Below are positions 27,241-30,595 of a DNA stretch of 64,000 nt, piece after piece. The position numbers and the translations under genes were made by a program. How positions within the stretch are numbered: the stretch's first letter is position 1; each line of letters opens with the position of its first letter. The notes beneath the pieces were generated by a model, which saw only the letters and a program-made list of their open reading frames with translations, ran no database searches and was not told where the DNA came from. The DNA lies in the NCBI GenBank assembly GCA_002710685.1, contig PALD01000037.1, positions 1 through 64,000 of the forward strand, written 5' to 3'. The DNA comes from Cytophagaceae bacterium (GTDB lineage Bacteria > Bacteroidota > Bacteroidia > Flavobacteriales > Flavobacteriaceae).

Positions 27241-28500
27241 ATGAGCGTCAAACCCCATTTTTATCCTTCCTATACAGGAAATTTTTATGCCATAGGCCTT
27301 AGTTACCTCAAAGCAGATGCTGAGGTACGTGGTCATTTTAGTATTGATGCTCCTACACAAATCAACATTCTAGAGCAGGCAAAACAAAACGGTCTTGAGG
27401 GGCTTACCATCATTTCTACCTGCAACCGCACAGAGATTTATGGTTTTGCAAAAGATGCCGGAGACCTTATCGATTTGCTTTGCGTGCACACACAGGGAAC
27501 GCGTGAGGAATTTGAAAAAGTAGCCTACATCTACAAAAATGAAGCTGCCGTTGACCACCTTTTTAAAGTGGGCACAGGTCTGGACAGTCAGATTCTGGGT
27601 GATTTTGAAATCATTAGTCAATTAAAGACTGGCTTTAAACGTGCCAAAAAACTCAACCTTGTCAATCCCTTTATGGAGCGTTTGATAAACGCTGTTATCC
27701 AGGCGAGCAAACACATCAAGAGCAAAACAAATATTTCAAGCGGGGCGACTTCGGTGAGTTTTGCCTCCGTGCAATATATTTTGGCCCGCGTACCCTTTAT
27801 TTCTGAAAAGAACATCTTGCTTTTTGGCACTGGTAAAATAGGCCGCAATACCTGCGAAAACCTGGTAAAGCACACCCAGAACGACCACATCGTTTTAATA
27901 AACCGCACAAAGGATAAAGCGGAAAAAATCGCCGGAAAATTTAATCTTGTGGTTAAGGATTATGCGAATATCCAAGCTGAAATTGCAAACGCGGATATCT
28001 TGATCGTAGCCACGGGAGCAAGCAAACCTACTATTTCTAAGGAGTTACTATACCTCAAAAAACCGTTGCTTATCCTCGACCTTTCAATTCCCAAAAATGT
28101 GGATGAAAATGTCCAGGAAATTGAGGGCGTCTCACTGGTTCATCTTGATCAACTCTCAAAAATGACTGATGAAACCCTTAACCGTCGTAAGGAACAAGTT
28201 CCACAAGCGCTGGGTATCATTAAAGAAATACAAAGCGAATTTTACGAGTGGTTAGAGACCCGAAAATTTGCTCCTACCATTAAAGCTTTAAAGAATAAAC
28301 TGGTTGACCTTAAGGAAGGTGAACTTGATTTTCAGCGTAAGAAAATAGCAAACTTCAACGAAGAGCAGGCGGAGATCATCAGCAACCGTATTATTCATAA
28401 AATCACAACACAATTTGCCAGTCATTTAAAATCTGAAAATGGTTCGCAGGCCGCTAGCCTTGAACTCATTCAGAAAGTGTTCAAACTGGAAAATCAATAG
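27241..28500 (+). CDS. hemA: Glutamyl-tRNA reductase
   Basis: A 419-residue cytosolic enzyme that reduces glutamyl-tRNA to glutamate-1-semialdehyde with NADPH, the first committed step of the C5 heme pathway. The catalytic cysteine sits in STCNRTEIYGF. The NADPH-binding segment ILLFGTGKIGRNTC and C-terminal dimerisation helices are intact. It is the first gene of the heme operon, 3 bp upstream of hemC. A hemL gene (the next enzyme) is not in the window. Confidence 0.97.
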   Translation: MSVKPHFYPSYTGNFYAIGLSYLKADAEVRGHFSIDAPTQINILEQAKQNGLEGLTIISTCNRTEIYGFAKDAGDLIDLLCVHTQGTREEFEKVAYIYKNEAAVDHLFKVGTGLDSQILGDFEIISQLKTGFKRAKKLNLVNPFMERLINAVIQASKHIKSKTNISSGATSVSFASVQYILARVPFISEKNILLFGTGKIGRNTCENLVKHTQNDHIVLINRTKDKAEKIAGKFNLVVKDYANIQAEIANADILIVATGASKPTISKELLYLKKPLLILDLSIPKNVDENVQEIEGVSLVHLDQLSKMTDETLNRRKEQVPQALGIIKEIQSEFYEWLETRKFAPTIKALKNKLVDLKEGELDFQRKKIANFNEEQAEIISNRIIHKITTQFASHLKSENGSQAASLELIQKVFKLENQ

Positions 28501-28503
28501 CCC

Positions 28504-29421
28504 TTGACAAAGACCATCCGCATCGGCACACGCGACAGCGAACTTGCCCTTTGGCAGGCCAATACCGTAAAAAATAAGCTGGAAAATTTGGGTTACACAT
28601 CTGAGCTCGTCCCAGTAAAATCAACGGGCGACCTCATTCTAGACCAACCGCTTTATGAGCTAGGCATCACAGGTATTTTCACAAAAACGCTTGATGTCGC
28701 CATGATTAAGGGCGAGGTAGATATCGCGGTACACAGCATGAAAGATGTTCCTACGCTTTTACCCAATGGTATCGTACAAGCTGCCGTTTTAGAACGCGCC
28801 GCGGTTAAGGATATTTTAGTGCATAAAAGCGATGATCTCCATGCAGATTTAACTCAGCCCAAAACTATTGCAACCGGAAGTCTTCGCCGCAAGGCACAAT
28901 GGCTGCATCGCTATGAAAATCACGAAGTGGTCGATTTGCGTGGCAATGTAAATACGCGAATGCAAAAGTTGGAAGACAGCGATTGGTTAGGAGCGATTTT
29001 CGCGCAAGCGGGATTAGAACGCATCAACATCAAGCCAGAAAATCACATTGAGCTAGACTGGATGATCCCAGCGCCGGCACAAGGTGCGATGGTTATCGCC
29101 GCAATGGAAAATGATGTTTTTTGTAAGGAGGCTTGCGCCAAATTAAACGATGAAGAATCGGAGATCTGCACGCGAATAGAACGTGAGTTTCTAAGAACTT
29201 TAGAAGGCGGTTGTACCGCGCCGATAGGCGCTTTAGCCACGGTTGAAGGTGATGAGATAAGATTTATTGGGGCGTTGTTTAGCTTAGATGGTAAAACAAA
29301 AATCGAACTTGAGCGAACCATGCGTTTCTCAGATTATGAAGGTTTTGGTAAGGCTTGCGCCAAAGAGATTTTAGCAGATGGCGGCGCTGAACTGATGCAG
29401 AAAATAAAAGAACAATTATAA
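28504..29421 (+). CDS. hemC: Hydroxymethylbilane synthase
   Basis: A 305-residue enzyme that polymerises four porphobilinogens to hydroxymethylbilane on a dipyrromethane cofactor. Motifs are IRIGTRDSELALWQA at the start, VHSMKDVP, and the cofactor-attaching cysteine in FLRTLEGGCTAPIGA. The only suitable start is TTG at 28504, 3 bp after hemA; no ATG precedes IRIGTR. The gene ends at the left repeat of the DUF559 cassette. Confidence 0.95.
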   Translation: MTKTIRIGTRDSELALWQANTVKNKLENLGYTSELVPVKSTGDLILDQPLYELGITGIFTKTLDVAMIKGEVDIAVHSMKDVPTLLPNGIVQAAVLERAAVKDILVHKSDDLHADLTQPKTIATGSLRRKAQWLHRYENHEVVDLRGNVNTRMQKLEDSDWLGAIFAQAGLERINIKPENHIELDWMIPAPAQGAMVIAAMENDVFCKEACAKLNDEESEICTRIEREFLRTLEGGCTAPIGALATVEGDEIRFIGALFSLDGKTKIELERTMRFSDYEGFGKACAKEILADGGAELMQKIKEQL

Positions 29422-29422
29422 A

Positions 29423-29449
29423 CCTCCCCTATTCCCTTTGGGAGAGGGA
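29423..29449. repeat. Left border repeat of the DUF559 cassette
   Basis: A C-rich then G-rich stretch ending in GGGAGAGGGA lies two bases after the hemC stop. The same GGGAGAGGG core recurs at 29849-29858, so the pair brackets the DUF559 coding segment. Confidence 0.6.
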
Positions 29450-29455
29450 ATATAC

Positions 29456-30595
29456 ATGAAAATCTCAAAAACAAATATCGCAAGGCAATTAAGGCAGGAA
29501 CAAACCGAAGCTGAAAAATTGCTATGGGACTTTTTGAGAAACAGAAAAGTTGAAAATCTTAAATTCAGAAGACAACACCCTCTCAAAGATTATATCGTAG
29601 ATTTTTATTGCCATCAGTTAATGCTTGTAATAGAATTAGATGGTGGCTATCACAATAAAGCCGAACAAAAATTCAAGGATGAACAACGTGATTTTCATTT
29701 AGAATTTTTGGGATATATAGTCCTTAGATACAAAAATGAAGTCGTCACAGAAAATCCTAAAAAAATATTTGAGGATATAGCAAAAGTAAAAATGCATAGA
29801 GAAGCAAACCCGATAAAAAAATACGAAAACCTATCTCCCCTCTCCGGCGGGAGAGGGGCTGGGGGTGAGGAGAAAAAAGAACCGAAAAACTCAAATCACA
29901 AAATTCCTTCTTCCTCAATTAAGAGAGCAGACGGTGGTGATGTAACTTCTCGCACGATCCTATCCACAAAAACATTGAGCCTGGCTCAAAAAAACCTCAT
30001 CCTGAATGCAGGAGTTGGCTTTGTGGAATATGATGCGATCAAAATAGTTTTCGGGCAATTTGAAATGCCCCGCAGCATCACAAATGCCATTTTCACCAGC
30101 CAGAATGCGGTGCGCGTGATAAATTTTGGCGAAAGCCAGATCAAAAACTGTTTTTGTGTGGGTGAAAAGACTGCTGAGCTTTTAAAGCAAAAAGGTCAAA
30201 ATGTGGTTAAAATCGCTCAAAACGCGTCAGAATTGGGTAAATATATTGCAGAAAATCACAAAAACGAACGCTTTTACTTTTTGTCAGGAAACAAACGCAG
30301 AGACGAACTTCCTGAGATTATGAAAGAAAATAATATTGATTTGACCGAAATCGCAGTGTACGAGACGAAGCTGAATTACAAGAAATTTGAACAGGATTTT
30401 GATGCGGTTTTATTCTTTAGCCCTAGCGGTATTGAAGCGTTTGCACATCACAATCCTATAGAAGATAAACTAGCGGTTTGCATTGGCGAGACCACTGCTG
30501 CCCAGGCCAAAAAACATGCACTGAATATCGCTGTGGCAAACAGCACCAGCATTGAAAGTGTGATTGCTAAGGCCGTGAAAAAACTAGCCAAATAA
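29456..30595 (+). CDS. hemD: DUF559 endonuclease-like domain fused to uroporphyrinogen-III synthase
   Basis: A 379-residue fusion (ATG at 29456; a TTG lies 18 nt upstream). Residues 1-110 form a DUF559 domain related to PD-(D/E)XK/Vsr-type nucleases, with acids Asp49 (YIVDFYC) and Glu60/Asp62 (VIELDG). Residues 122-165 are a low-complexity linker encoded by a GC-rich repeat ([11 protein letters not shown]). From about 167 ([18 protein letters not shown]) the rest is HemD, which cyclises hydroxymethylbilane to uroporphyrinogen III. No ATG, GTG or TTG start lies at the HemD boundary, so HemD appears to depend on the fused start. This looks like an in-frame insertion of a mobile DUF559 cassette between hemC and hemD. 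It follows hemC and precedes hemE by 1 bp. Confidence 0.85.
29833..29871. repeat. Right border repeat of the DUF559 cassette
   Basis: CCCCTCTCC (29837-29845) pairs with GGAGAGGGG (29850-29858) around a GC-rich loop, followed by CTGGGGGTGAGG. Sequences of this kind (GGGAGAGGGGCTGGGGGTGAGG-like, here kept short) are known as dispersed repeats beside DUF559 genes in many bacteria. The repeat is translated as part of the linker. Confidence 0.7.

Follow-up and report, generated by a model that had tools for sequence, protein, structure and literature searches.

Selfish genes residing within essential genes are generally considered to need either splicing, as in introns and inteins, or a tiny size, as in Rickettsia palindromic elements (RPEs). 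Homing endonuclease genes are patchily distributed and spread horizontally. Like the inserts treated here, they place a nuclease gene in a conserved host gene, and in-frame fusion occurs; the passages concerned in one paper describe such a fusion of a LAGLIDADG coding sequence with mitochondrial rps3 (PMC7902536). Inteins resemble our inserts as in-frame guests, often with a nuclease, within housekeeping proteins. RPEs and intragenic REPs are, according to the relevant sections of two papers, in-frame palindromes in unrelated protein genes (PMC10969869, PMC3733652), and in this respect, as far as those sections go, both they and the DUF559 inserts are selfish palindromic DNA in frame inside protein genes. 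REP-associated tyrosine transposases (RAYT)/TIRYT are presented in part of one of these papers as a small nuclease-type gene between inverted repeats (PMC3733652). The DUF559 domain (PF04480) itself occurs in the solved protein 3HRL and in Caulobacter VsrA, on which, in the sections of the report concerned, the DNA-damage response of cells without the methyltransferase ScmA depends (PMC12907096).

The inserts described below, one of which lies in a window of 64,000 nucleotides (the whole stretch of DNA analysed, from a genome labelled G000), depart from each of these systems. In 3HRL and VsrA the DUF559 domain belongs to free-standing genes, whereas here it is a guest inside other proteins. 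Unlike homing endonuclease genes, the inserts have no intron or intein seen around them, carry a DUF559/Vsr-like domain, occupy many host genes, insert centrally with both sides translated and possess inverted arms. In contrast to inteins, no splicing family was found in 20 proteins scanned, and, judged from the sequence, the guest remains part of the protein. RPEs measure about 150 bp with a short peptide ORF, whereas the DUF559 insert of about 0.4-0.5 kb holds a full nuclease domain between its arms; furthermore, the two arm sequences searched are not high-copy, in contrast to RPEs and intragenic REPs. The inserts are also unlike RAYT/TIRYT as described in the section cited, being in-frame guests with a PD-(D/E)XK-like domain instead of a tyrosine transposase. 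Neither introns, inteins nor RPEs are unspliced translated homing nuclease guests of the DUF559 kind. A survey of the open-access literature, judged by titles, abstract starts and passages, found no paper on translated DUF559 guests, and among open-access papers mentioning DUF559, judged by titles, abstract starts and the passages of one paper, none dealt with such guests.

Structure of the fused DUF559-HemD gene

Directly after hemC in the hem operon of the window, a complete DUF559 domain reads in one frame via a repeat-encoded linker into HemD (uroporphyrinogen-III synthase). The features are as follows, the identities of hemC and of the downstream hemE having been assigned by eye from the ORF list:

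28504..29421, + strand: hemC, the upstream neighbour, ending one base before the left arm
29423..29449, + strand: left arm of the insert, a short CCC-TTT-GGG hairpin and GGGAGAGGG, decayed in the window copy
29456..30595, + strand: DUF559-HemD fused frame with ATG start; TTG 29438 is in frame too
29468..29785, + strand: DUF559 nuclease domain (Pfam match), with candidate catalytic residues D49, E60 and D62 and conserved E20 and H66 (numbering from ATG 29456)
29837..29869, + strand: right arm, a CCCCTCTCC/GGAGAGGGG hairpin and GGGGGTGAG tail, read as a Gly/Pro/Ser/Arg-rich linker
29870..29947, + strand: rest of the linker ahead of HemD, without in-frame start codon
29948..30592, + strand: HemD domain

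Translated from 29459, the 378-aa sequence gives Pfam matches to both domains and so bears out the single frame proposed in the initial annotation: DUF559 covers residues 4-109 (E 5.7e-35; 119.9 bits against a cut-off of 20.6, profile positions 3-106 of 109) and HEM4/HemD (PF02602) residues 206-369 (E 1.4e-32; 113.2 bits against a cut-off of 27.5). This frame starts at TTG 29438 or, more plausibly, at ATG 29456, in which case the left arm (29423..29449) is untranslated, and stops at 30593-30595. Asp49, Glu60 and Asp62 (from ATG 29456), which had been noted as retained, are indeed present and near-invariant across fused copies, and the GGGAGAGGG repeats reported to flank DUF559 were found at 29440-29448 and 29849-29857, at most one base off the places first given. 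The absence of a usable HemD start at the boundary was likewise confirmed: ATG 29792, located 55 codons before the ILSTK motif, is the sole in-frame ATG, GTG or TTG between the Pfam-type domain match and HemD. The right-arm hairpin is intact (9 nt, 100%), and the left arm of the window copy is without recognisable pairing to the right arm. One solved relative was found for the window DUF559, namely 3HRL_A ("Endonuclease-Like Protein", E 5.4e-18), and the AlphaFold prediction of the single window protein reached a mean pLDDT of 39.6, too low to use. hemC is listed as starting at TTG 28504, which lies three bases past the stop of the preceding gene (window 28500-28506).

Elsewhere, G000 encodes a second HEM4-family protein (L314:522-1265, G000:C34; Pfam E 1.8e-31, 24-27% identical), which leaves unproven the earlier claim that the fusion is the sole form of an essential enzyme. 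At least two HemD matches were obtained in 42 of 60 genomes searched, some of these being pieces of one gene. The second HEM4 gene of G000 is situated about 6 kb from a leucyl-tRNA synthetase (LeuRS) frame with another DUF559 insert.

The hemD site in related genomes

Comparison of hemC-hemD junctions within the genus (13 genomes) was expected to yield unfused hemD, and this applies to seven genomes (G001, G003, G004, G006, G007, G008, G012) but not to the other six, in which a DUF559-HemD frame is present (G000, G002, G005, G009, G010, G011). Other genera of the family contribute at least eight more fusions (G074, G128, G130, G171, G186, G251, G256, G329); with at least 13 further genomes having the same fusion, a private or artefactual origin is ruled out. 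All 14 hemD copies of DUF559 fall on one side of one branch (support 86) in a 177-row FastTree of the domain based on few columns, and this single lineage, together with its presence in at least 13 other genomes, implies that the fusion is old and not, as first assumed, new in this genome. On a tree of 31 HemD rows the fused state requires 9 changes (8-10 over the bootstraps; mean with shuffled labels 10.4-10.5), and the supported sisters G005/G004 and G009/G003 differ in it, pointing to an old lineage that was gained or lost many times. Inside the genus the insert diverges approximately in step with HemD (for example, 94.2% versus 94.1% in G010/G011), so that recent transfer is not seen at this site within the genus.

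In the insert-free genomes G004 and G006, the bases before the HemD ATG are exact matches to 14 and 12 nt, respectively, of the left end of the insert (0/500 shuffles each). They are apparent deletion scars that would have recreated a start codon; alternatively, the target itself may resemble the end of the insert. The same search gave nothing above shuffles in G001, G003 and G008 (three of the five insert-free genomes tested). Regarding start codons within the fusions, an ATG lies at most 6 codons from HemD in 2/14 (G130, G329) and a GTG at most 5 codons from it in G256, G002, G005, G074 and G329, while seven of the 13 fusions other than the window have no start within 18 codons of HemD.

Two further observations concern insert-free members of the genus. 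The hemC-hemD gap of G007 (L069:1240-1893) contains a separate NUMOD4-HNH endonuclease gene, and the DUF559 insert is absent there; such genes are of a kind known from homing elements. HemD of G004 without DUF559 (L015:1252-1962) harbours a repeat-like 12-residue peptide in an internal loop, and G006 looks similar.

DUF559 domains in other host genes

DUF559 is present in 188/397 genomes of the family and in 182/395 of the class. G000 itself has three matches: the window copy, a second within a frame of 158 aa and a third within a frame of 1181 aa. The last of these is LeuRS (NCBIfam leuS_bact, 891.8 bits against a cut-off of 548.4), and the nuclease occupies its residues 335-439. We sampled DUF559 matches in long open frames among the matches listed (149 loci, 147 ORFs kept, 118 genomes), frame length being the selection criterion, which over-represents in-frame copies. 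Left out of the sample were partial or weak DUF559 matches and the listed long frames G503:C100, G629:C21, G501:C1:3588869, G456:C7, G586:C96 and G040:C1; L134 and L170 (frames of about 200 aa judged spurious) were dropped as well, but are still contained in the arm loci and the direct/inverted count below.

Single-linkage BLAST clusters of these 147 ORFs among the matches listed gave LeuRS (58), MetH (21), HemD (14), RecG (13) and acetate-CoA ligase (Acs, 7) as host groups, followed by IleRS (6), SpoIIE-type (3), RecJ (3), IcmF (3), HisD (2), HisF (2), MutS (2) and 13 singles. Altogether, 19 host families were named by HMM in the 147 ORFs among the matches listed, using one representative per host group (ten by NCBIfam, HemD and SpoIIE by Pfam) and, for singles, Pfam (UvrD-type helicase, CoA-transferase III, TsaD, Eco57I-type RM enzyme, M23 peptidase, GATase_5 and HsdR). 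Additional scans covered 11 second-site LeuRS members, two further IcmF members and a single member each of MetH and SpoIIE. All were in agreement but the SpoIIE member, whose sole match was to a phosphatase model, below its cut-off. The scan of the single L266 found DUF559-type families only; L212, L245, L261 and L265 stood outside the host scan, and L221 is without host name. In-frame DUF559 inserts are thus common in family and class, with another one in LeuRS of G000, and the capture of a housekeeping gene loses the exceptional character ascribed to it. Overall, the idea of a mobile nuclease cassette capturing the start of hemD stands as regards an in-frame cassette with repeat-like arms from a family behaving as mobile, but not as regards its rarity, newness and exclusivity.

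In 123/147 ORFs the open frame extends 60 aa or more to either side of the domain; of the others, 19 have the domain N-terminal and five C-terminal or otherwise placed. At the main LeuRS site the insert lies at a frame position below 400 (47/58), other sites lying at 500-671 (11, all LeuRS); MetH has three insert sites and IcmF two. The second site of MetH L108 is occupied by a short segment that preserves the frame, has repeat-like ends and lacks a nuclease. Another methionine synthase, L107 (G265), has two in-frame DUF559 domains at two sites, and in MetH of G042 (L169) the insert lies between two similar repeat translations of about 34 residues in direct order, as if two complete short elements were present.

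Short-frame copies served for comparison; 28 loci were considered free-standing and, leaving out L195, 27 were used, none of which was found to split a gene of the host set. Outside the domain, host-type matches were limited to two loci: L198, which has a second DUF559, and L057, whose copy has a type I restriction gene next to it. A search for related loci in genome contigs gave a single hit, a DUF559 gene standing free in a Saccharicrinis MAG. The idea of a phage or plasmid gene as obvious source was rejected, as the two phage records matched were both below 60% identity and, of 42 plasmid records matched, three showed 60-80% and 39 less than 60% identity.

Conservation of the nuclease and its arms

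Residues E16, D45 and D58 of DUF559 are kept in 147/147 fused rows and E56 and H62 in 146 (L171, too divergent, was left out of this count and the second domain of L107 added). D45, E56 and D58, kept in the window copy and in 146-147 of the 147 rows, are presumably the catalytic acidic residues of PD-(D/E)XK type. Median dN/dS of the inserts amounts to 0.12 in HemD (3 pairs), 0.11 in RecG (4), 0.27 in MetH (10) and 0.29 in LeuRS (118), where the inserts are under weaker constraint than LeuRS itself (0.29 versus 0.11). Conserved residues and low dN/dS imply that selection keeps the nuclease, as expected of either a selfish copying enzyme or a host function.

The arms are GC-rich hairpins in inverted order (for example, GCCCCCCAACCCCCAAAGGGGGAGC on the left and GCTCCCCCTTCGGGGGCGGGGGGGGC on the right in MetH L108), with a GC peak of 0.68 versus 0.57 in the control, and their translations, in other copies too, are Pro/Gly/Ser/Arg-rich linkers. 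Alignment of left arms to reverse-complemented right arms (148 of 149 fetched loci) gave a mean score of 19.3 for own pairs, 12.6 for swapped partners from other sites and 10.2 for shuffled sequences; the own match beats all 40 swapped partners in 43/148 loci and all 20 shuffles in 112/148. The inverted match exceeds the direct one in 124/148 loci, the direct one being better in 19. Arm scores are alike in the 27 short-frame copies (19.5 own, 11.8 swapped, 10.7 shuffled). On average the arms are inverted, but their resemblance to the terminal inverted repeats of insertion sequences is uneven across copies: compared with all right ends of other sites, 60/146 elements rank in the top 5% (median 10%), and the window copy does not, its score of 11 being reached by 69/132 swapped partners.

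Searched with up to 3 mismatches allowed, the right arm of the window has a single occurrence in G000, which contains three DUF559 matches in all; its interpretation as a dispersed repeat unit of G000 is rejected. The LeuRS right arm has one copy in five of seven genus genomes searched and none in two. Filled and empty sites at hemD, LeuRS and TsaD were inspected for target duplication, for which the loops are too variable to define one. Downstream of HisD in L147 (G443), at least one further left-arm repeat copy follows the HisD-DUF559 fusion.

Exchange, inheritance and loss of inserts

Between G008 and G001, the LeuRS inserts have 2 differences in about 315 nt (99.4%, dS 0.03), whereas their LeuRS hosts are 86% identical (dS 0.66-0.68), and identity drops close to the insert; assuming the host rate, a binomial estimate for this pair is 4.5e-18, and assuming 8% divergence it is 1.6e-9. 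In G002/G009, inserts of 95.8% identity (dS 0.18) reside in LeuRS of 83% (dS 0.65-0.67), the border being less sharp and the estimates 6e-12 and 0.005, respectively. Judged by these nucleotide differences, the insert has been exchanged horizontally at LeuRS, independent of the host gene, and probably so at RecJ, where the G600/G460 inserts share 92.3% (dS 0.35) as opposed to 83.0% (dS 1.43) in the host. Comparing G002 or G009 with G001, G005, G006 and G008 (8 pairs), the inserts are approximately 60% identical within LeuRS of 77-81% identity, so that different lineages occupy one site. Spread of the homing type, independent of the host gene, was thus observed at the LeuRS site and not at the hemD site. 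In the 39 pairs that share a site and whose host divergence is usable, six inserts are much closer than their hosts, seven to eight much further apart and about 25 in step, from which we conclude that vertical inheritance dominates, with horizontal exchange on top.

In the genus, the LeuRS site is filled in 8/13 genomes and empty in five, with 4 changes on the 13-row LeuRS tree versus a shuffled mean of 4.2. Site labels require 32 changes on the domain tree, compared with 109.4 when shuffled (the tree being a FastTree from few columns with 79/173 branches unresolved). Copies in HemD, SpoIIE, RecJ, HisD, HisF and MutS are each found on one side of a branch, the label changes being 11 for LeuRS (58 rows), 5 for MetH, 5 for IleRS (6 rows), 3 each for RecG and Acs and 2 for IcmF. 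Across the seven genomes of one genus, the TsaD site holds the complete insert in G656 and both arms in frame, with the nuclease gone, in G600; G570 has one arm-like remnant there, and G460, G503, G629 and G539 show no recognised trace in a length-variable loop. The LeuRS loop of G003 contains a different repeat, a 21-mer that occurs at two places in that genome; such loops hence tolerate inserts of several kinds, and the recurrent insert sites may merely be tolerant loops.

Possible explanations

The best reading, which we consider rather likely to be correct, is a homing-like selfish element that is not spliced out and persists in the host protein as a translated guest domain. Such an element of about 0.4-0.5 kb would comprise a DUF559 nuclease of PD-(D/E)XK-like type, flanked by two arms that are rich in GC, form hairpins and are inverted relative to each other; it would enter protein genes, stay there unspliced and survive where both nuclease and arms keep the reading frame of the host, with the arms serving as flexible linkers. 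We infer copying driven by the nuclease, which would cut insert-free alleles or new targets and have the insert copied during repair (homing), now and then jumping to a new site; the fusion protein would likewise stay unspliced. At hemD, the insert would have entered long ago at the start codon, its own ATG thereby becoming the start of HemD, and some descendants would have lost it and regained a short HemD. Sequence comparison establishes the anatomy, the recurrence in 19 named host families, the retained catalytic residues and the remnant states at the TsaD site. That class-wide, autonomous, unspliced homing elements exist whose nuclease copies itself into housekeeping genes and stays as a translated guest, with arms doubling as DNA ends and protein linkers, is a tentative generalisation on which we would not quite rely.

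Kept catalytic residues and purifying selection in the insert (median dN/dS 0.11-0.29) would also suit a domesticated domain, DUF559 being useful to host enzymes in DNA tethering, regulation or defence and the fusions being ordinary multidomain proteins under selection. This is, however, distinctly unlikely given the patchy occurrence (9 changes on the HemD and 4 on the LeuRS tree, typically no fewer than with shuffled labels), sister species that differ, unrelated host functions, arms inverted on average and horizontal exchange of the insert alone; patchiness and exchange favour a selfish copying enzyme over a host function. The inserts might otherwise be accidents of permissive loops, in which repeat expansion drops DUF559 genes anywhere and in-frame copies in tolerant loops survive, the nuclease having no part in site choice or copying and exchange being plain recombination of host genes. 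Other repeats in the same loops, imprecise boundaries and the finding that 0/27 short-frame copies split a host-set gene agree with this, but near-identity limited to insert and close borders in G008/G001 at 14% host difference, several site-specific lineages on the domain tree and the near-absolute conservation of catalytic residues make it unlikely.

Separate translation of HemD from an internal start, by which the fusion in the window would be only apparent, gains some credit from the ATG within 6 codons of HemD in 2/14 fusions and the GTG within 5 codons in five; with the nearest in-frame ATG, GTG or TTG 55 codons upstream in the window and none within 18 codons in 7/13 others, we regard it as very unlikely. 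Still harder to believe is an insert removed by splicing at the RNA or protein level (an intron or intein of unfamiliar type) to restore the enzyme, even if complementary arms could bring the flanks together and housekeeping hosts are typical for inteins, as stated in part of one paper (PMC9410109). The frame remains open via both arms and the nuclease in 123 ORFs, which is needless for an intron, albeit long frames were selected; the intein was rejected with no splicing family in the 20 proteins at the thresholds used and a frame open on both sides; and in hemD the insert supplies the start codon.

Implications

Translated nuclease guests in housekeeping genes are a broader and more interesting finding than the hemD case. 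A whole nuclease domain is apparently tolerated in aminoacyl-tRNA synthetases, DNA-repair and metabolic enzymes across a bacterial class, and the exchange of these guest domains between species and their seeming loss offer natural experiments on domain insertion and protein evolvability. The inserts may represent an unsuspected homing mechanism and could explain oversized LeuRS, MetH or RecG proteins.
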